A stretch of 64,000 nucleotides of DNA, taken from positions 186,001 through 250,000 of the forward strand of contig NZ_JACJOT010000008.1 in the NCBI RefSeq assembly GCF_014695715.1. Reading direction: 5' to 3'. Below are positions 39,372 through 49,542 of the stretch, in pieces (positions within the stretch are counted from its first letter, which is position 1; the number at the start of each line of letters is the position of its first letter). Both the position numbers and the translations under genes were made by a program. Source of the stretch: Microcoleus sp. FACHB-68 (GTDB lineage Bacteria; Cyanobacteriota; Cyanobacteriia; Cyanobacteriales; Oscillatoriaceae). A model generated the notes under the pieces. It had not been told where the DNA came from. It did not search any database and saw only the letters and a program-made list of their open reading frames with translations.

Positions 39372-40475
39372 ATGACCCCCGAAGAAGCATTTGAGTTTGT
39401 GAATGGGTTATTTATAGAGAAAAATCAACCCAAATTAAGGCCAGTGGAGAAAGCCGTTTTTATAGGAATTTATAATAATTTTACTTATCCGGAAATTGCT
39501 AACGAAACCTGCTGGACTTTTCAATATATAAAAGAGACTGGCCCAAAATTATTTAGAAAGCTAAAAGAAATTTTAGAAATCGACGTTGACAAATATGATT
39601 TTGTATCAGAAATTGAGAAACTCTGGAAACAGCACTCTGAGAACAGCCAATCTTCCCAAAAACCACTTACGGAACTACCCAATGTAGCCGTTCAAGAGAC
39701 GCTGCCTCCAGCTTTTCCATCACAGTCAGAAGCAAGTTTAATCGCTAAAAAAAAGCTTTGTAACCCCTTTATCCCTTTAAATGCCATAGTTGATAATCCT
39801 CAACAGTTCTTTAACCGGCACCGTGAGATCGAGCGAGTATTTGAGCTTCTTAACAGCAATAGTAGCGTTGCCTTGATAGGAGAAGAAGGTATCGGCAAAT
39901 CTTCTCTGCTAATAGAAATTTGTCGGCAGTCAGAAAATCGCCTCTTATCGCCGCGCCAGCCGATTTACTTAGACCTGAATCCACTTCATAATGAAGATGA
40001 ATTCTACAGCGCTTTGTGCGATGAGATTGGGATTTCTAAAAGCAAAGGATATCCCCTAACTCGCGCTTTGCGACAGCATCAAGATCGATTGTTGCTAACT
40101 ATCGACAATGCGGGAAAGATGATAGGCAAAGGGTTTACTCGTAACCTCCGTGATCATTTGCGCGGTTTGGCTGAGGGAAGTGATGCACCTTTGCGGCTGA
40201 TTTTATCTGCCGGCGAACCCCTTGCTCAGCTTTTTAAAGAGAGTCAGGAACAAAGCAAAACATCACCATTTTCTGGCATTTTCCGAGATCAAGACATCAA
40301 ACCTTGGGATGAAGCGACTGCTCGTACATTTATTGAAAGCCGGCTTAAGACAACTTCTGTGCATTTTACTGAAGAAGAAATAACTCAGTTAGTGCAAAAA
40401 AGTGCCGGCCATCCTCGGCAACTGATGCAAGGGTGCTATCGAACTTATGCGCGATACATGGAGCAACTGCAATGA
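39372..40475 (+). CDS. P-loop ATPase with vMAP-type N-terminal HTH
   Basis: This 367-residue protein has two parts. Residues 1-90 (TPEEAFEFVNGLFIE, then TYPEIANETCWTFQYIKETG) match the helix-turn-helix N-terminus known from cyanobacterial vWA-MoxR-associated (vMAP) and NACHT proteins. From residue 145 there is a AAA/STAND-type ATPase: FFNRHREIERVFELL, Walker A GEEGIGKSS at about 175-183, the Walker-B-like strand RLLLTIDNAG and a sensor region LRLILSAGEPL. It ends with the PRQLMQGCYRTYARY helix. No effector domain is attached, so it may sense and hand on to the next gene, whose ATG overlaps its stop (ATGA at 40472-40475). Confidence 0.82.
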   Translation: MTPEEAFEFVNGLFIEKNQPKLRPVEKAVFIGIYNNFTYPEIANETCWTFQYIKETGPKLFRKLKEILEIDVDKYDFVSEIEKLWKQHSENSQSSQKPLTELPNVAVQETLPPAFPSQSEASLIAKKKLCNPFIPLNAIVDNPQQFFNRHREIERVFELLNSNSSVALIGEEGIGKSSLLIEICRQSENRLLSPRQPIYLDLNPLHNEDEFYSALCDEIGISKSKGYPLTRALRQHQDRLLLTIDNAGKMIGKGFTRNLRDHLRGLAEGSDAPLRLILSAGEPLAQLFKESQEQSKTSPFSGIFRDQDIKPWDEATARTFIESRLKTTSVHFTEEEITQLVQKSAGHPRQLMQGCYRTYARYMEQLQ

Positions 40476-43090
40476 GCCAACATCAAAGTCCTGTTCCCCA
40501 GTTAGATTTGGCTCCCAAACTAAAGCGCCCTCTCTCATTGTGGAATCCCCTTGATTACTTACGGTTGCTATACTGGGTGTTTTTCTTCCCCCAAGCGTTG
40601 CAGTGGTATGTCGAAACCTTTGGAAATACGCTTGTTCTCAAAGGCAAAATGACTTGGCAAACGCGATGGGAGTGGCTGCGCCAAAATCCTATCGAGCTTC
40701 ACTTCTTTTTACAAGGGTTATTGCTGACTGTTATAACGCCATTAATTGTAGGTGTACCACTTCAAGAAATAGGCATCCCCCTTAATGGGTCATACGTGAC
40801 AGCTGGTGTGGCGTTTGGCGTGGCGTTTGGCATAGCGTTAAGTGTGACGGGCGGCGTGGCGGTTGGCGTGGCGTTTGGCGTGGCATTTGGTGTGGCGTTT
40901 GGCGTGGCGGGGGGCGTGGCGGGGAGCGTGGCATTTGGTGTGGCGTTTGGCACGGTGCTAGGCGTGGCAGCAGGCGTGGCATTGAGCGTGGTGTTGGGTA
41001 TGGCGGGGGGCGTGGCGTTAGGCATGACGGGGGGTGTGGCATCGGGTGTGGCGGGGGGCGTGGTGGCAGGCGTGGCCTATGGCGTGGCATCGGGCGTGGC
41101 GATACTCCGTCCTGAAAGTTGGCTTTTGAATCTACCGCTCGTGCTGTTACAACCCCAGAATGAACGCTGGCGGTTTTCCCGTCTTACTCTACTTCCTCTA
41201 ATTCACCTCTCCTTCTATCTAAAAAAGTGGCTGCAACAGGATTGGGAGAGGGGGCTGGATAATGTCAATCAACTGCTGAAGTATACGCTTCAGTTCATCC
41301 CTGTTATCAAGGCAGTTAACCACGTACTAGCGGAAACACCGCCAGAGGAAGTTATCTGTCGCGTCACTAAACTGGCTGAAGCTCCCTATGATTGGGACTT
41401 AGTGTATTTTGTCTCCGCGTCTTTAAGTGAAAATATAAAGTCAAAGGTTGTGGCCGGTTTCTTTCTTGTTCCGCCTCCCTGGAAGCGGCAGATCCAGGCT
41501 CGTCTTTTAACAGAACCCCGTACAGACACACCCGCGCGTGCGGCTGCGGCTGGTTTTTGCCACTTATACAAATTCGAGCCAGCAAAAGCAGCCGAAGCTT
41601 TTGCCGTCGTGCGTTTTCTCCCTGATGGAGCCGAACTATTAACCTTAGCTGAAACTCTAACAGCCTTTTACCGCATTGAGTCTCTAGACGATCTGGCGCT
41701 GATTGAATTGCCCAATCCTCCCCAGGAACCCCTACTGCGTCCAGCTACTTGGAAAGCGATTGCTAGCTTGCGTCGAGTTGCTGAGGATTTCCGGGCTGTT
41801 CGGGGTAGCGTGTCTCGCTCGATCCGCTCTTTCGCCCTCAACCGAGCATTAGGAGAGCTTAAAAGCATTTTAGACGCAGGCGACTGCTTGCCCCAAGCAG
41901 AGCGAAAGCTAATCCTTGACATTGCTGAAGCTTTACAAGAATTGCTGCTGAAGGTCGCTACTGAAGTCGGGGAAATATCCATCACTGAACCTGTCCGCAA
42001 TCCTTATGTTGTGGGCGATCCAGTGCAGGGGAGGCTTTTTGTGGGACGGGAAGATACGATCAGACAGCTAGAAGAGTTGTGGGTATTGGGCAATCAACTA
42101 CAGTCTGTGGTTCTTTTCGGTCATAGGCGAATGGGCAAAACTTCTATCCTCAAAAATGTGGCAAACTGTCTTGGATCTGGGGTAAAAGTCGCCTACATCA
42201 ACTCGTTAAACCTGGGAGATATCTCTCAGGGAGTTGGGGAAGTGCTGATGGCAATCAGCGATGAGATTTCTCGGACGGTCAACCTCCCACCCCCTGCGGA
42301 TGCGGATCTGCTAAATCTTCCCACCCGCACATTTGAACGCTATTTGAAACAAGTTGAGGCAAATCTAACCGGCGGCTTAATTATTGCCTTAGATGAATTC
42401 GAGAAAATCGAGGAACTGATAGAAGCCGGGAAAATCTCGAAAGATTTTATGGGAGTTCTGCGGGGGATGGTGCAAATGAGTCCGCGAATTGCTTTTGCAT
42501 TTGCCGGCCTTCATACCCTCGAAGAAATGACAGCAGATTACTTCCAACCCTTCTTTGCTAGTGTCATCCCGATTAAAGTTGGCTTCATGGAACCTGCGGC
42601 AACCGGCTACCTTCTCGCTAACCCGGATGACGATTTCCCCCTCGACTACAAACCAGAAGCGCTGGATTTGATTTATGAACTGACTGTCGGCCAACCTTAT
42701 CTCGTCCAGTTGATTGGATTCGGACTCGTTCGCCGCTATAACGATCAAGTATTTGAAATCGGACACCCCCGCGAGCCAATTTTCACCGTAGATGATGTGG
42801 AAACAGTCATTGATGACCCTGAATTCTTTACCCGGGGACGCTACTACTTCACCGGCGTTTGGGGTCAAGCCGCGCAGGGTGCAGTCCACCAGCAAGCAAT
42901 CCTAAAAGCACTCGCCCCTCACCCGGAAGGATTGAGCCTAGAAGCGTTAGCTGAGACTGCCGATATTGATGAAACAACATTAGGCGAAGCCCTCAAGACT
43001 CTCACACGCCATGATGTCGTTGAAGAAAAGGAGAGCCGGTGGCAGATCATTGTGGAACTGTTCCGCCGGTGGGTTTTAGATTATGTTTAA
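40472..43090 (+). CDS. Membrane STAND-like ATPase with Gly-Val-Ala ladder
   Basis: This 872-residue protein is translationally coupled to the preceding ATPase by an ATGA overlap; upstream in-frame Met at 40433 lies inside that gene and is not used. Residues 20-100 have hydrophobic segments. Residues 110-213 form a ladder of GVAFGVAFG-type units, a run of overlapping GxxxG glycine-zipper motifs. Residues 250-500 are helical. The C-terminal ATPase has the VGREDTIRQLEELW opening, Walker A FGHRRMGKTS at about 549-558, Walker B GLIIALDEFEKIEEL at about 635-649 and a winged-helix end (SLEALAETADIDETTLGEAL). Sensor-ATPase plus membrane zipper suggests a regulated membrane-disrupting effector; this is inference. 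Confidence 0.82.
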   Translation: MSQHQSPVPQLDLAPKLKRPLSLWNPLDYLRLLYWVFFFPQALQWYVETFGNTLVLKGKMTWQTRWEWLRQNPIELHFFLQGLLLTVITPLIVGVPLQEIGIPLNGSYVTAGVAFGVAFGIALSVTGGVAVGVAFGVAFGVAFGVAGGVAGSVAFGVAFGTVLGVAAGVALSVVLGMAGGVALGMTGGVASGVAGGVVAGVAYGVASGVAILRPESWLLNLPLVLLQPQNERWRFSRLTLLPLIHLSFYLKKWLQQDWERGLDNVNQLLKYTLQFIPVIKAVNHVLAETPPEEVICRVTKLAEAPYDWDLVYFVSASLSENIKSKVVAGFFLVPPPWKRQIQARLLTEPRTDTPARAAAAGFCHLYKFEPAKAAEAFAVVRFLPDGAELLTLAETLTAFYRIESLDDLALIELPNPPQEPLLRPATWKAIASLRRVAEDFRAVRGSVSRSIRSFALNRALGELKSILDAGDCLPQAERKLILDIAEALQELLLKVATEVGEISITEPVRNPYVVGDPVQGRLFVGREDTIRQLEELWVLGNQLQSVVLFGHRRMGKTSILKNVANCLGSGVKVAYINSLNLGDISQGVGEVLMAISDEISRTVNLPPPADADLLNLPTRTFERYLKQVEANLTGGLIIALDEFEKIEELIEAGKISKDFMGVLRGMVQMSPRIAFAFAGLHTLEEMTADYFQPFFASVIPIKVGFMEPAATGYLLANPDDDFPLDYKPEALDLIYELTVGQPYLVQLIGFGLVRRYNDQVFEIGHPREPIFTVDDVETVIDDPEFFTRGRYYFTGVWGQAAQGAVHQQAILKALAPHPEGLSLEALAETADIDETTLGEALKTLTRHDVVEEKESRWQIIVELFRRWVLDYV
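40799..41102 (+). repeat. 12-bp coding tandem repeat (GGCGTGGCGTTT type)
   Basis: About 300 bp consist of degenerate 12-bp units built around GGCGTGGCG(T/G)(T/G)(T/G). Each unit encodes Gly-Val-Ala-x, so unit gain or loss keeps the frame. It encodes the glycine-zipper ladder of the ATPase gene. Confidence 0.9.
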
Positions 43091-44249: not shown

Positions 44250-45650
44250 TTACTCTGCGGCATCCCCACCGACAACAACATTGCGGAGGCGCAAACTTGG
44301 CCCACCACAACCTACCGACAAGCCACTTTGGCCGCCTTTCCCGCAACCGCCGGACTCATCCCAGTAGAAATCATCCCCAATGGCTTCAATATCGGCCAAA
44401 GTGGTAAACACATTTCCAGAAAGCGTTACATCGCGCACAGGCTCTGCTAATTCGCCATTGCGAATCATCCACGCTTCACCGGCACTAAAGGTAAACATCT
44501 CCCCATTGGTCATTCCTCCCAGCCAGTTCCGGGCATAAACACCCTCTTGAATATCTGTAAACAAATCTGGCACTGCTGTATTGCCCCGCTCAATCCAGGT
44601 ATTAGTCATGCGGACAATGGGAGGATAGTGATAACTCAAACAACGGGCGTTGCCGGTGGCTGCTTCTCCTAACTTTCCAGCCGTCTCGCGGGAGTGCAAC
44701 CGGCCTACTAAAACCCCATCCTCAATGAGCTGGGTTGTGCTTGCCGGCGTTCCTTCATCATCGTAAAAATAACTCCCGCGATGGCCTTCCGGAGCGGCAC
44801 CATCAAAAATTTGCAACTCTTTTGGCCCAAACCGGCGGCCTAATGTCATCACCTCCAGCAAATCCGGATTCTCATACGTCATATCCGCTTCCGAGAGGTG
44901 CCCAAACGCTTCATGGACAAATAAACCGCTGAGAATCGGGTCAATCACCACTGTGTAAGTATTGCCCTTCACAGAGGGCAAAGAGAGCGCCTGCACAGCC
45001 CGTTCTGCCGCGCCGCGCACTTGATCGTCTAGGGTGGTCATATCTTCATACGCCTTGCGCGATCCCGTGGTTTCACGGCCCGTTTGCACCGTGCTGCCGG
45101 CCCTGGCAGTGGCCGCAAACCGCATTTCCATATCCACCCAAGATTGTTCCAAAACCGTGCCTTCTGAGGTCACCAGGATGATTTTCTGGGCGCTGTCGCT
45201 GTAGCGTACAGACGTGGTGGTGATGCGTTGGTCAACACTGCGAAGAATTTCCCCATAGTGATCGCACAATGCTTTCTTTTGGGTGAGGGAAATCCGGCGG
45301 GGATCAGTGCCGGTCATCGGCAACTGGCAAATCGCTTGCACCGGCATCACCTCGGCCAGCAGGGTTTCTTCATCCCCCACCAACCGGGCGGCTGCGATCG
45401 CTTCCTCAATTCGTTCTGCCAACGTCCCTAACTGATTGAAACTGGCAAAGCCCCAACCACCCTTATGGCAAGCCCGGACTTGCCCGCCAATCGACACCCC
45501 TTCACTGAGGGTTTCAATCTTTTCTCCCCGCAAAAAAATATCAGTGCCTTCAGATTCCTCCAATCGAATCGCCAAATAATCCACATGAGGTGAGAAGCGA
45601 GCCATCAAGTCAGACAGCAAATTTTTAGCGTCATTTAGCAAAGTAGACAT
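44250..45650 (-). CDS. tldD: TldD family metalloprotease
   Basis: This ~466-residue protein of the TldD/PmbA (TldE) family forms a zinc metalloprotease that degrades small unfolded peptides and matures some peptides in Enterobacteria. The zinc motif HEAFGH is clear (VHEAFGHLSEADMTYENPD), and the C-terminal substrate region GGMTNGEMFTFSAGEAWMI follows. The start at 45650 (MSTLLNDAKNLLSDL) is preferred; the frame is open 13 codons further. Cyanobacteria often have the partner tldE elsewhere; it is not in the window. The gene is divergent from the histidine-kinase-like gene. Confidence 0.92.
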   Translation of the reverse strand: MSTLLNDAKNLLSDLMARFSPHVDYLAIRLEESEGTDIFLRGEKIETLSEGVSIGGQVRACHKGGWGFASFNQLGTLAERIEEAIAAARLVGDEETLLAEVMPVQAICQLPMTGTDPRRISLTQKKALCDHYGEILRSVDQRITTTSVRYSDSAQKIILVTSEGTVLEQSWVDMEMRFAATARAGSTVQTGRETTGSRKAYEDMTTLDDQVRGAAERAVQALSLPSVKGNTYTVVIDPILSGLFVHEAFGHLSEADMTYENPDLLEVMTLGRRFGPKELQIFDGAAPEGHRGSYFYDDEGTPASTTQLIEDGVLVGRLHSRETAGKLGEAATGNARCLSYHYPPIVRMTNTWIERGNTAVPDLFTDIQEGVYARNWLGGMTNGEMFTFSAGEAWMIRNGELAEPVRDVTLSGNVFTTLADIEAIGDDFYWDESGGCGKGGQSGLSVGCGGPSLRLRNVVVGGDAAE

Positions 45651-45916
45651 GAGCGACGGCCAGTTAAATGAACTGCCTTCATTTTGCAACAGCGCAAGGG
45701 AGATTGTCCTGATTGGGACTGATGAGCAATTGGCCCATGCACGGAGATTGCGACTAATTAGTTCGGTTCTTCGACTGTCCTTAACTGAAAAATACCGATA
45801 CTCTGAAGGAGAAGGGTTCTGCCCCCTTGCCCTACAGACGTAATTGAGTTATCGGTTTTACTATTTTGAAGAGCGGTTCTGCTACTAATTGCAATCTGCC
45901 AAGAGGGTTTACTGCT

Positions 45917-47686
45917 ATGGATCAATGGTTTTTACCGGCCCTCAGTGAGGTTTTATCCCTTACCGGGGCAGAGTGTGGATTTGAAGCGGTGGCGGGTGGT
46001 GGAGATGTTGCCGGCAATGTCTCTTTAAATCGCAACCGGCACCGTTCTGCCGCTGAGGCTACTCAGCAACGCCTCAAGGCGGAACGGGAATGGTGCGGTG
46101 CCGTTGCCGCACTTAACTGTCTTTTGCAACAACAATTGGCCATAACTGGGCCGGCCACAATTAAACATCCTGCGATTGGCCAAGAAGCAAGCCACGCCCA
46201 AGATTTTGACCCATCACACGGCTTGATCTTATCCGGGCCGATGCCGGTGTTGACTCACCCAGCCCTTGTTTCCCGTGTGGCGTCTTGCACATTCACTTCC
46301 GATCCGCTCAACCCAGCCCTTTGGTTACTGGGAGAACGCAATCGGCACAGTATGCCCCTGCTGCCACTCCCGGAAGGATGCGCTGCCCCGGCTTCTCGTA
46401 CCCGTTCATTGGTTCCCTTACTTTCAGATGACCCTTTGTCAGATGAACAGTTTTGTGTGGTATTAACTCACAAATTGAGTCTGGTGATGGTTCTGGGCGT
46501 GGACAGCAACGGGGAACCGGCGTTTCAGTTTTCTTTTGACCCGGAAGTGGTTGCACAAGCTTGGCATTCGCTGCGTCCCCGCGTGTTACTGGCCGGCAGT
46601 AATGCTCAGTTGAGCCAGCTGGATGATTTAATGGAGCGGTTTGCGCCGGCAGCCCCAGACTACAAAACTGTGATGCAGTTTAGCCGGCTGCTTCTGAAAT
46701 ATATGCCGGAGCCGGTTGAGTGGGAAAACAGTCGCTCAGACTCCCCAGTGCGTTTGCTATCGGCGGCAGTACACGACTCGCAGCCAGTAGCCACTGTAGA
46801 GGCAGCCGGTACATCCAGCAAATCGGCTTGGCGTTCGCGTAACGCTAATCGCAGCCATTCCGACTCTGCCGGTTGCGTGAATGAGCGTACCAAGAGGCCG
46901 GCTGCTGTGAAAACAAACTTAAATCGAGAAACCCTTGAGCAGCGCCTAGAGCATCTAGCCGGTGGAACCGGCACGGCAGCGAATGAGCGATCTCAAGCGC
47001 AGGATGTGGAATTGCTGCAAGCGATCGCCCACGAAGTTCGCACGCCTTTGGCGACAATTCGCACTTTAACTCGCCTATTGCTAAAACGCCGAAACTTAGA
47101 GCCAGAAGTGATTAAGCGTTTGGAAATGATTGATCGCGAGTGTAGCGAACAGATTGATCGTTTTGGTTTAATTTTCCGCGCTGTGGAATTGGAAACTTCT
47201 GAAACAAAACGAGCGCCGGTTCATTTAACATCTACTCCCCTGACGCAAGTTTTCGACAGTTGCATTCCTCGGTGGCAAAAACAGGCAAGCCGGCGAAATC
47301 TCACCCTAGATGTCGTTTTGCCGCAGAAGATGCCCTCGGTAGTGAGCGATCCGACAATGTTGGATCAGGTACTCACCGGCGTAATTGAAAATTTCACCGC
47401 CAGTCAGCCGGCAGGAGGTCATGTGGAAGTGCAAGTGATGCTAGCCGGTGATCAATTAAAAGTGCAGTTGCAATGTCAAACCGGCAGTGAAAAATTGTCG
47501 GCAAATGCCTCAACTTCACCACTTAAATCGATTGGTCAGTTGTTGGTATTTCAGCCAGAAACCGGCAATCTCACACTCAATCTCTCGGTCACAAAAAATC
47601 TCTTTCAAGCCCTAGGCGCAAAACTAATCGTGCGACAAAGACCTGAACAAGGCGAAGTGCTAACGATTTTCCTGCCCCTAGAATAG
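45917..47686 (+). CDS. Sensor kinase with intact His box but degenerate ATPase domain
   Basis: This 589-residue protein has an N-terminal sensor region with the segment EQFCVVLTHKLSLVMVLG, similar to that of the neighbouring DICT kinase. Its HisKA box has His372 (codon 47030-47032) in AIAHEVRTPLATIRTLTRLL. The following ATPase region has lost key motifs: the N-box reads GVIENFTASQPAGG, no DxGxG motif is present, and the G2 region reads GNLTLNLSVTKNLF. ATP binding therefore looks lost, while dimerisation and phosphotransfer through His should remain. It resembles a histidine phosphotransferase such as ChpT in logic. The Met start at 45917 follows a poor leader; Met at 45866 is possible. It is convergent with its paralogue at 47812. 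Confidence 0.85.
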   Translation: MDQWFLPALSEVLSLTGAECGFEAVAGGGDVAGNVSLNRNRHRSAAEATQQRLKAEREWCGAVAALNCLLQQQLAITGPATIKHPAIGQEASHAQDFDPSHGLILSGPMPVLTHPALVSRVASCTFTSDPLNPALWLLGERNRHSMPLLPLPEGCAAPASRTRSLVPLLSDDPLSDEQFCVVLTHKLSLVMVLGVDSNGEPAFQFSFDPEVVAQAWHSLRPRVLLAGSNAQLSQLDDLMERFAPAAPDYKTVMQFSRLLLKYMPEPVEWENSRSDSPVRLLSAAVHDSQPVATVEAAGTSSKSAWRSRNANRSHSDSAGCVNERTKRPAAVKTNLNRETLEQRLEHLAGGTGTAANERSQAQDVELLQAIAHEVRTPLATIRTLTRLLLKRRNLEPEVIKRLEMIDRECSEQIDRFGLIFRAVELETSETKRAPVHLTSTPLTQVFDSCIPRWQKQASRRNLTLDVVLPQKMPSVVSDPTMLDQVLTGVIENFTASQPAGGHVEVQVMLAGDQLKVQLQCQTGSEKLSANASTSPLKSIGQLLVFQPETGNLTLNLSVTKNLFQALGAKLIVRQRPEQGEVLTIFLPLE

Positions 47687-47697
47687 CGACTGACAGA

Positions 47698-47811
47698 GGC
47701 GAGTGCTGAGTTGTGAGTGGTAGAGAGGGAGAGCGGCTAAAAATGCCCCATGCCCCTACCTTTAGGTTGGCGAAGCCTTGCCCCATGCCCCATCCCCAAT
47801 GCCCAATCCCC
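47698..47811. repeat. TGCCCCA-type tandem repeat between convergent kinase genes
   Basis: Degenerate 7-bp units (TGCCCCA, TGCCCAA, TGCCCCT) occur around 47740-47811, preceded by GAGTGCTGAG. They belong to the same family as the repeats at 2021-2144 and 61040-61143, and they separate the stops of the two convergent sensor-kinase genes. Confidence 0.75.
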
Positions 47812-49542
47812 CTATTCTTTATGATAAATCGGCAGCAAAACGTTAAAAGTCGAACCCTGACCAAGTTGGCTTTTAACGGAAATTGAACCACCGCAGCGCA
47901 GCAATAACTGTTGCACAATCGTTAAACCTAAACCGGCACCGCCCGGATCGTCATCGACGGCTTGGCGAACGCGATAAAATCGTTCAAAAATTTTGTGAAG
48001 TTCGCTAGCAGGAATGCCGATGCCGGTGTCGCGAAATTCTAATTGGATATAATCTCCCTGCTGCTTTGCCTGCACCCAAACTTGACCGCCGGTGGGGGTA
48101 AACTTGATGCCATTATGCAACAAGTTGATCGCGATCTGCTTCAGCCAGGGACGCAAACAGGAAACGGGGGGCAAGTTGTCTGGGATTGTGTAAGCTAGCA
48201 TCACGCCTTTTTCTTGGGCTAATGGCTGGTAGGTACTGACAACCCCAGGCACCATTTCTGCCAAATACAAAGCTTGCATCGCTGCATGATCTACCAAATG
48301 ATCGAGCCGCACCAGTTCTAGCAAGCCGTTGATCAGCGAAGTTTGGCGATCGCACTCGGTATTGAGCAGTTGCATATACCGATCACGCTGAGCCGGCTTG
48401 AGGTTGGGGGAACCCAGCAGGGTGAGTGCTGTTTTCATATTGGTTAAGGGTGTCCGCAGTGCCTGACCCACATTGCTGAGAAATTCGTCTTTCAGGTGCA
48501 TCGATTCCAGCAACTCTTGGTTTTGCAGTTGCAAGGCTTCTGCATCGACTGCGTGCTGCCGGTAGTGGGTGATACTGCGCCAAACTTCTTCTTGCTGCTG
48601 AATTTGTTTGGCCCATAAGTGCCCTGCGTGAGATGCAAACAAAGAAGTTTTTGTCAAGTCAGAGGATGGGAAACGCAGAAACAGGGAATCCCAATTTTTT
48701 AAGAGTTCGTCAGTGGTGACAGAAACCGACGTTGGGATTTGTGCTAGAGGGATTGTTCCTACGGTTGGCTGAGCGGTTGGGAGAGTTTTTGACGGGCTAA
48801 TGGTAGCGATATGTCGCAAGCCGGCTAATACGTGTTCAACTGCCGGCGCGTCTGTAGAGCAAATTGCTAAAAGTGGTTGTTTACGTTCCGAATTGGTCTC
48901 TGTGGCGTCCACCGGCAGCCGGATAGATCGAGGCCGGTGGGCCACGATCACGCTACAAAATTGCTCTGAGAGGACGAAGATAAAATATTCCCGTCTTAAA
49001 GAAGATTCAGCCGGCACATTCAGTTCAAAACTTGTTGAGGTTGCCGGTGCCGGTGTGCTTTGTCTCGCCTTATCCTGAATCAGGGATGTCTCGCTGTCAG
49101 CGATTGGCGCAGACTGCCTGTGCGTCTGGAATTCAGATGTTGGGCGGGAGTATCTTTGCTTTGCCGGTGGCGATTCGAGTTCTGCTGGGTGCGATAATAT
49201 TTCCCCTGAATTGTCAGAATTATCCTCATCTGCCAGACTGGCTGCATTGCGCCCAGAAAGGTTGCAAACATAAATTCCTTGACAAACTCCACTTTGCCGG
49301 TAACGCTCAAGCTCAGCTTGCCACGCATTCCCGCGCGGGAGTTTGACTAATAATGTTGCCGGTATCTCTTGATCAAGCAACAAGTCAATCAGCGCATCTA
49401 CCATAGATTTGAGCGTCGCCGGACTGACTTGCAAGGCATGGGGCGGCTGCTGGGCGCTGAGGGCTAGTTCGTACAGGGAGATGTCTTGAGCTGGTGATAA
49501 ATTCATTGACTCAGGAAGAAAAAGGCCGGCGATATTTGGCAC
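47812..49542 (-). CDS. DICT-type sensor kinase with intact ATPase but Gln in place of the His
   Basis: This 576-residue protein has an N-terminal DICT-like sensory region (SLYELALSAQQPPHAL at the start; REYFIFVLSEQFCSVIVAHR about residue 190), a HisKA-like helix and a complete HATPase. The ATPase motifs are intact: N-box INLLHNGIKFTPTGGQV, G1 DTGIGIP, F-box FERFYRV and G2 GGAGLGLTIVQQLL. The phosphoacceptor position of EFLSNVGQALRTPLTNMK is Gln360 (codon CAG, plus-strand 48463-48465) where family members have His in SHELRTPL; a single base change separates them. It cannot autophosphorylate in the usual way. The convergent paralogue at 45917 has the reciprocal defects. Met at 49506 is an alternative start. 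Confidence 0.85.
   Translation of the reverse strand: MPNIAGLFLPESMNLSPAQDISLYELALSAQQPPHALQVSPATLKSMVDALIDLLLDQEIPATLLVKLPRGNAWQAELERYRQSGVCQGIYVCNLSGRNAASLADEDNSDNSGEILSHPAELESPPAKQRYSRPTSEFQTHRQSAPIADSETSLIQDKARQSTPAPATSTSFELNVPAESSLRREYFIFVLSEQFCSVIVAHRPRSIRLPVDATETNSERKQPLLAICSTDAPAVEHVLAGLRHIATISPSKTLPTAQPTVGTIPLAQIPTSVSVTTDELLKNWDSLFLRFPSSDLTKTSLFASHAGHLWAKQIQQQEEVWRSITHYRQHAVDAEALQLQNQELLESMHLKDEFLSNVGQALRTPLTNMKTALTLLGSPNLKPAQRDRYMQLLNTECDRQTSLINGLLELVRLDHLVDHAAMQALYLAEMVPGVVSTYQPLAQEKGVMLAYTIPDNLPPVSCLRPWLKQIAINLLHNGIKFTPTGGQVWVQAKQQGDYIQLEFRDTGIGIPASELHKIFERFYRVRQAVDDDPGGAGLGLTIVQQLLLRCGGSISVKSQLGQGSTFNVLLPIYHKE

Follow-up and report, generated by a model that had tools for sequence, protein, structure and literature searches.

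The window, a 64,000-nucleotide stretch of contig NZ_JACJOT010000008.1 (positions 186,001 to 250,000), is part of the 6.5 Mb genome of the cyanobacterium Microcoleus sp. FACHB-68. It contains two genes for histidine kinase-like proteins, here called A and B, over which the phosphoacceptor and ATPase motifs of a histidine kinase are divided in sequence. The genes converge across a gap of approximately 125 bases, and both are about 94% identical in a metagenome-assembled genome of Microcoleus vaginatus, the closest named locus compared. Their convergent orientation rules out a single operon. Promoter- or terminator-like sites were sought around the gap and none were found, a result that carries little weight.

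Protein A (589 residues; 45917–47686, plus strand) is probably of the Hik34 type. Its reading frame, Pfam matches, alignment and model define a DICT-like N-terminal segment, a dimerization and histidine phosphotransfer (DHp) domain, and a degenerate ATPase domain without G boxes. In a profile alignment, the N-terminal segment (residues 158–268; 46388–46720, plus strand) matches the DICT region of B plus residues beyond it, in agreement with the model. PF10069, the DICT family, has no Pfam match in A, and the DICT likeness comes from this profile alignment alone. The DHp domain scores 31 bits for HisKA, above the cut-off, and carries His372 (codon CAC; 47030–47032, plus strand) in the HEVRT box of AIAHEVRTPL. 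Residues 438–589 (47228–47683, plus strand) have an ATPase-type fold that contains neither a DxGxG nor a GxGLG box and scores 16 bits for HATPase_c, below the cut-off of 26.

Protein B (576 residues; 47812–49542, minus strand) is composed of a DICT domain, a DHp domain and an intact ATPase domain, all of which score above their Pfam cut-offs. The DICT domain (residues 21–203; 48934–49482, minus strand; PF10069) reaches 106.4 bits against a cut-off of 23.8. The DHp domain (HisKA, 41 bits) has Gln360 (codon CAG; 48463–48465, minus strand) in place of the phosphoacceptor His, in VGQALRTPL. The HATPase_c domain (residues 465–572; 47827–48150, minus strand; 94 bits) retains DTGIGIP and GAGLGL, the latter within GGAGLGL.

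AlphaFold models of B and A have mean predicted local distance difference test scores of 81 and 77, respectively. Structure searches with these models confirm the common HisKA/HATPase fold only; the comparison of A spans just the residues that form this fold (353–589).

Conservation of the losses in A and B

We compared 99 distinct A sequences scoring at least 140 bits, the window included. His372, Glu373 and Thr376 are each invariant (99/99), and the ATPase region is devoid of a DxGxG or GxGLG box in every sequence. No A thus unites the acceptor His and the ATP boxes of a canonical HisKA-HATPase protein. A match to A at E ≤ 1e-20 is present in 278 of 290 genomes of the class. The twelve genomes without one are G016, G034, G047, G058, G060, G061, G080, G088, G090, G098, G251 and G264; several of them keep a match of the type of the kinase Hik2, and G264 is a fragmented assembly with a B-type match.

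The B set comprises 125 of 132 candidates of at least 170 bits, rows with identical last 180 residues having been removed, and includes the window (L062) and a near copy (L009). The N-box and DHp-helix alignments have 126 rows, as the window is counted twice. The phosphoacceptor site is occupied by Gln in 113 of the 125 distinct sequences, by Arg in seven, Leu in three, Glu in one and His in one. The canonical combination of His and ATP boxes is therefore absent from 124 of them, the His being the missing part. The Gln codons, 61 CAA and 52 CAG, are each one base away from the His codons. The lone His-bearing B (L078:1063–2760, codon CAT) belongs to genome G024, two sampled genus-mates of which have Gln, and offers a natural control. 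The count of one His in 125 depends on the 170-bit cut-off, because the next kinase, L197 (169.4 bits), has His; in the tree, L197 is not a member of the B clade. Of the 125 sequences, 123 retain both ATPase boxes, and the N-box Asn is present in all 126 alignment rows. The site is followed by Glu in 118 sequences and by Ala in four, the window's own B among the latter, and most B boxes inspected have Thr at +4. Arg occupies the site in L206–L210, L285 and L288, seven B-type proteins whose ATPase boxes are intact.

In the phylogeny of the DHp-ATPase parts, B is a single clade with support of 100/99. DICT was searched for in 12 genomes and scores above the cut-off in the B of six that have one. 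As read from the match tables, B-type genes occur in about two fifths of the 290 genomes; the raw tally of 273 for the B query includes ordinary kinases. One assembly, G275, has two different B-type genes (L220 and L221), reflecting duplication or contamination. A search of the open-access literature, judged mostly on titles and the beginnings of abstracts, returned no description of a family of DICT-bearing kinases with an intact ATPase and no His.

The background frequency of the His was estimated in the genome of the window, in a sample that covers 88 of at least 151 places with an ATPase match and excludes A and B. Of the 88 places, L436 is Hik2 and was chosen on purpose, and L385 and L405 overlap and yielded one and the same box. 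Of 86 scored rows, 65 exceed 12 bits and were counted. The His is kept in 65/65 rows. Among the 21 rows below 12 bits, the 18 that are readable all have His, in boxes of the HEINNP type, and three are unreadable.

The earlier note on this DNA, made from its letters, had described A as keeping His372 without ATPase boxes and B as combining Gln360 with a complete ATPase. Both descriptions are borne out: the first by the reading frame, the CAC codon, the Pfam scores and 99/99 sequences, the second by the CAG codon, the HATPase_c score and the intact boxes.

Kinship, gene order and the basal gene cluster

Residues 158–268 of A align with residues 166–319 of B in a profile comparison (hhalign probability 96.7, E 4.4e-10). 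In the models, the strands and helices of this segment follow one another in a similar though not identical order, with one strand more in B. The shared N-terminal EQFC segment proposed in the earlier note is therefore real. Its view of A and B as paralogues holds for this segment and fails for the DHp-ATPase parts, which form separate, well-supported clades and are not each other's nearest relatives. Of the 64 tree rows, one that carried the label of a different kinase (HK_L160) was an A.

The distribution of B lies inside that of A, and the two losses form no strict pair. With counts estimated by hand (134, 144, 1 and 11), a rough Fisher test gave p = 0.007; it ignores relatedness and was not relied on. 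By hand count, A and B lie within 10 kb of each other in 22 of about 120 genomes in which both were located, against a random expectation of about 0.4 that ignores relatedness; many assemblies are fragmented. Adjacency is a minority pattern seen in several families; locus L010 of Oscillatoria PCC 10802, for example, contains both A and B. Co-occurrence of the pair in relatives, which the earlier note had made a test, is thus found in part: both losses are conserved and some genomes keep the genes together, while strict pairing is not observed. The proposed obligate heterodimer is not supported, as A is present in 278 of 290 genomes, many of them without a B-type match, and basal copies of A adjoin an intact kinase of the Hik2 clade and an Rre1-type regulator.

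The commonest neighbour found for B is murE. Of the 121 cases with upstream sequence, 59 have a Mur ligase gene within 1.5 kb ahead of B and in the same orientation, and this stronger linkage weakens adjacency as proof of a partnership between A and B. Two loci, L012 and L013, have A and murE and no B within the 6 kb stretch examined; an ancestral block from which B was later lost would therefore also explain the adjacency. A glutaredoxin-like gene, a murE-like Mur ligase gene and B stand in tandem in L262:5718–9359, L271:2384–5875 and L258:13316–16886.

In basal cyanobacteria, the gene immediately downstream of A, in the same orientation, encodes a short kinase that has both its His and its ATPase intact (8/8 genomes, three families). 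We take two of these to be Gloeobacter and the Synechococcus JA group. The short kinases have open frames of 213–350 residues, and no GAF domain was detected in the two copies scanned. A REC-LuxR response regulator comes after the short kinase in all three basal loci with enough flanking sequence, L152 (7381–9941), L153 (5479–8754) and L154 (6026–8912); L152 has overlapping open frames. In the 1.5 kb flanks of the other 22 A loci, the A and B models found no short kinase.

The short basal kinases and the rows labelled Hik2 form one clade of 15 rows (support 100/99), in which the basal copies branch around Hik2. The Hik2 label derives from the H-box, the GAF-HisKA-HATPase make-up, with GAF above the cut-off in one of two sequences scanned, and the spread of the protein. 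A Hik2-type match at 1e-20 is present in 262 of 290 genomes, and picocyanobacterial copies are too diverged for the query; Hik2 is reported to occur in all cyanobacteria (PMC4751278). The best orthologue of the regulator is 56–71% identical in 11/11 other genomes searched, picocyanobacteria included, and the next best match reaches at most 50%. The orthologue thus occurs in 12/12 genomes, and the match of genome G021 has one internal stop. In the three basal genomes, the cluster regulator and this orthologue are the same gene. A Hik2-Rre1 pair has been published (PMC13421787, PMC2677595), and Rre1 is described as a LuxR/NarL-type regulator homologous to Ycf29 (PMC2677595). The basal tandem, in which A precedes a Hik2-type kinase and then an Rre1-type regulator, points to a place for A in the Hik2-Rre1 hub, apparently as a component of an ancient assembly more widespread than B. 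A itself would also be older than B.

A is probably Hik34 (Slr1285). Hik34 is described as unique among the 47 kinases of Synechocystis, with HisKA as its sole motif and neither an ATP-binding motif nor a transmembrane domain, and as acting on heat-shock genes (PMC4390874). A likewise combines a HisKA motif with the lack of an ATP-binding motif, and the A of a putative S. elongatus genome has HisKA alone in Pfam. Counting back from rpoB in that genome, A is the fifth gene, in the order A, UvrD-type helicase, hisD, rpsT, tatD-type gene and rpoB. The rpoB gene is given as Synpcc7942_1522 (PMC3025956). By counting, A would therefore be Synpcc7942_1517. We take Synpcc7942_1517 to be Hik34. Because its features agree with what has been published for Hik34, A is unlikely to be a novel protein of the ChpT type.

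A, B and Hik2 share a signature in the DHp helix at positions +10 and +11 after the phosphoacceptor site. The residues are Arg (90/99) and Thr (97/99) in A, Lys (125/126 rows) and Thr (124/126 rows) in B, and Arg (18/21) and Thr (20/21) in Hik2. Thr at +11 is found in 8/8 basal kinases and in 0/24 other kinases, a group that includes mutual orthologues. Within the 65 rows from the genome of the window, the combination of basic +10 with Thr +11 occurs in one, the purposely included Hik2, and in none of the other 64. Interface positions of the HK853-RR468 pair presumably set regulator specificity. The rewired pair carries changes at +8, +11 and +15, besides other positions (PDB titles 4jas and 4jau; His260 from 6rh8). 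As evidence for a link between A and B, the DHp signature is better than gene order.

Two further genes were noted in the window. A TldD/PmbA-type gene (44250–45689, minus strand) is divergent from A, and a tldD match is present in 12 compared loci, the window's own included. The region 40433–43090 (plus strand) encodes a protein in which a long Gly-Val-Ala-rich repeat stretch (GVAFGVAFG...) precedes a longer region.

A candidate split kinase and rival explanations

HExxT is described as a phosphatase motif of HisKA proteins (PMC3591291). A protein such as A, with a conserved His and HExxT and no recognisable ATP site, should therefore take phosphate from an ATP-competent partner or hand it back. 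We hypothesize that A takes phosphate from, or returns it through, such a partner, and passes it to or removes it from Rre1. The ancestral and general partner of A would be Hik2. B would be an additional, lineage-restricted partner that has kept its ATPase boxes and given up its own His. The ATPase of B might act only on the DHp domain of a partner, A or possibly Hik2, or have a non-kinase role on the same regulator. That A is a Hik34-type subunit of a Hik2-Rre1 stress hub, with Hik2 as ancestral partner and B as a lineage-restricted, His-less DICT kinase acting in trans, has in our estimate an even chance of being right. It builds on the observed losses and their conservation, on the basal cluster and on the common DHp signature; it presupposes that A is Hik34, that the Hik2 and Rre1 labels are right and that B touches A or Hik2, and it assumes the direction of phosphate flow.

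Several observations weigh against this proposal. One B, that of G024, has a His, many genomes with A have no B-type match, and linkage of B to murE is commoner than linkage of B to A. Among the 65 own-genome rows, Thr at +11 alone occurs in four and a basic residue at +10 alone in ten. Because B is one clade, its agreement in the DHp signature counts as one event and not as 126. The labels Hik34, Hik2 and Rre1 were assigned from descriptions, gene order and domain composition rather than from a named sequence. In vitro autophosphorylation at normal temperature has been reported for the Synechocystis Hik34 despite its missing ATP motifs (PMC4390874, PMC3264485).

A bolder version of the proposal, which we regard as doubtful, holds that cyanobacteria control heat and redox stress responses through a naturally split HisKA kinase. 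Hik34 would be its obligate acceptor and phosphatase subunit, fed everywhere by Hik2 and in many lineages also by B, which would exist only to phosphorylate the His of another protein. Hik34 is puzzling as described, being a histidine kinase without ATP-binding motifs that nevertheless influences heat-shock genes and forms a published pair with Rre1 (PMC3264485). The basal cluster suggests that Hik34 works within the Hik2-Rre1 system, as one of its subunits, rather than as a kinase on its own. The B family would be a natural example of a kinase that has retained its ATPase in much of a bacterial class and dispensed with its own phosphorylation site, and would make in-trans signalling testable in a simple reconstitution.

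Alternatively, B could be a dedicated phosphatase or a nucleotide-sensing brake on the response regulator. The His-to-Gln change would then block the kinase state, nucleotide would set the phosphatase conformation, and no phosphate would pass from B to A. We consider this unlikely. The prevalent Glu after the site (118/125) and the Thr at +4 preserve the ExxT part of the motif without the His, and the shared +10/+11 signature fits docking on the same regulator. Gln substitutions in NarX reportedly keep phosphatase activity, which also speaks for such a role. The window's own B, however, is one of the four sequences with Ala after the Gln, and has thus lost the acidic residue while its ATPase boxes are intact.

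A role of B similar to that of DivL or RetS, in which its DHp domain pairs with Hik34 or Hik2 and switches their states, with ATP binding and no phosphoryl transfer, is quite unlikely in our view. Proteins that regulate another kinase are known from the reported DivL-CckA and RetS-GacS systems (PMC12189002), and structures of DivL and of RetS or GacS are among the better matches of the predicted models. This ranking, however, reflects just the fold that HisKA/HATPase proteins have in common, and a role beyond scaffolding is suggested by the DxGxG and GxGLGL boxes kept by 123 of 125 B sequences.

We also think it improbable that A and B are functionally unrelated, each with its own partners, and are adjacent as the remnant of an old block of A, B, murE and the glutaredoxin-like gene. 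The more frequent linkage of B to a Mur ligase gene (59/121) than to A (22 of about 120), and the loci L012 and L013 with A and murE and no B, would be expected from such a block. It leaves aside the N-terminal segment shared by A and B and the DHp signature that, in the own-genome sample, is found in Hik2 alone. Recent mutation or sequencing error, which the earlier note had named as a possible refutation, is ruled out with near certainty by the orthologue census, as the losses recur in 99/99 A and 124/125 B sequences, and we found no point in its favour.

Comparison with known systems

ChpT and Spo0B resemble A in that their DHp domain carries a His and their ATPase-like domain is degenerate. 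Their phosphate comes from a receiver domain. A differs from them in its DICT-like segment and in having no known receiver donor. Hik34, like A, is a HisKA protein without ATP-binding motifs; autophosphorylation has been reported for Hik34, whereas the sequence of A shows no ATP site. Hik2, the chloroplast sensor kinase, is known together with Rre1 (Ycf29), and corresponds to the basal kinase beside A, which lies in the Hik2 clade and neighbours a REC-LuxR regulator. In contrast to A and B, Hik2 contains both halves of the kinase chemistry in one protein. The ChrS pseudokinase of Corynebacterium glutamicum is reported to have no working ATPase domain and to act beside the paralogous intact kinase HrrS (PMC9491836). 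It is, however, an evolved laboratory mutant in which the His is dispensable, whereas A is old and its His invariant.

DivL is described as a catalytically inactive pseudo-histidine kinase that toggles CckA, and RetS as a partner of GacS through a heterodimer (PMC12189002). B differs from both in keeping the two ATPase boxes and carrying a DICT domain. The division of labour proposed here for A and B can be compared with CheA3-CheA4 of Rhodobacter sphaeroides, in which the acceptor His is on one protein and the kinase on the other, and neither is reported to autophosphorylate alone (PMC3591291). CheA3-CheA4 are of the CheA type and arose via domain loss, whereas A and B keep all domains and have lost residues, and any phosphate transfer between them is hypothetical. 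A 2013 survey of SMART listed 1556 of 42417 HisKA proteins as lacking HATPase and thus as split-kinase candidates, 711 of them with the phosphatase motif (PMC3591291).

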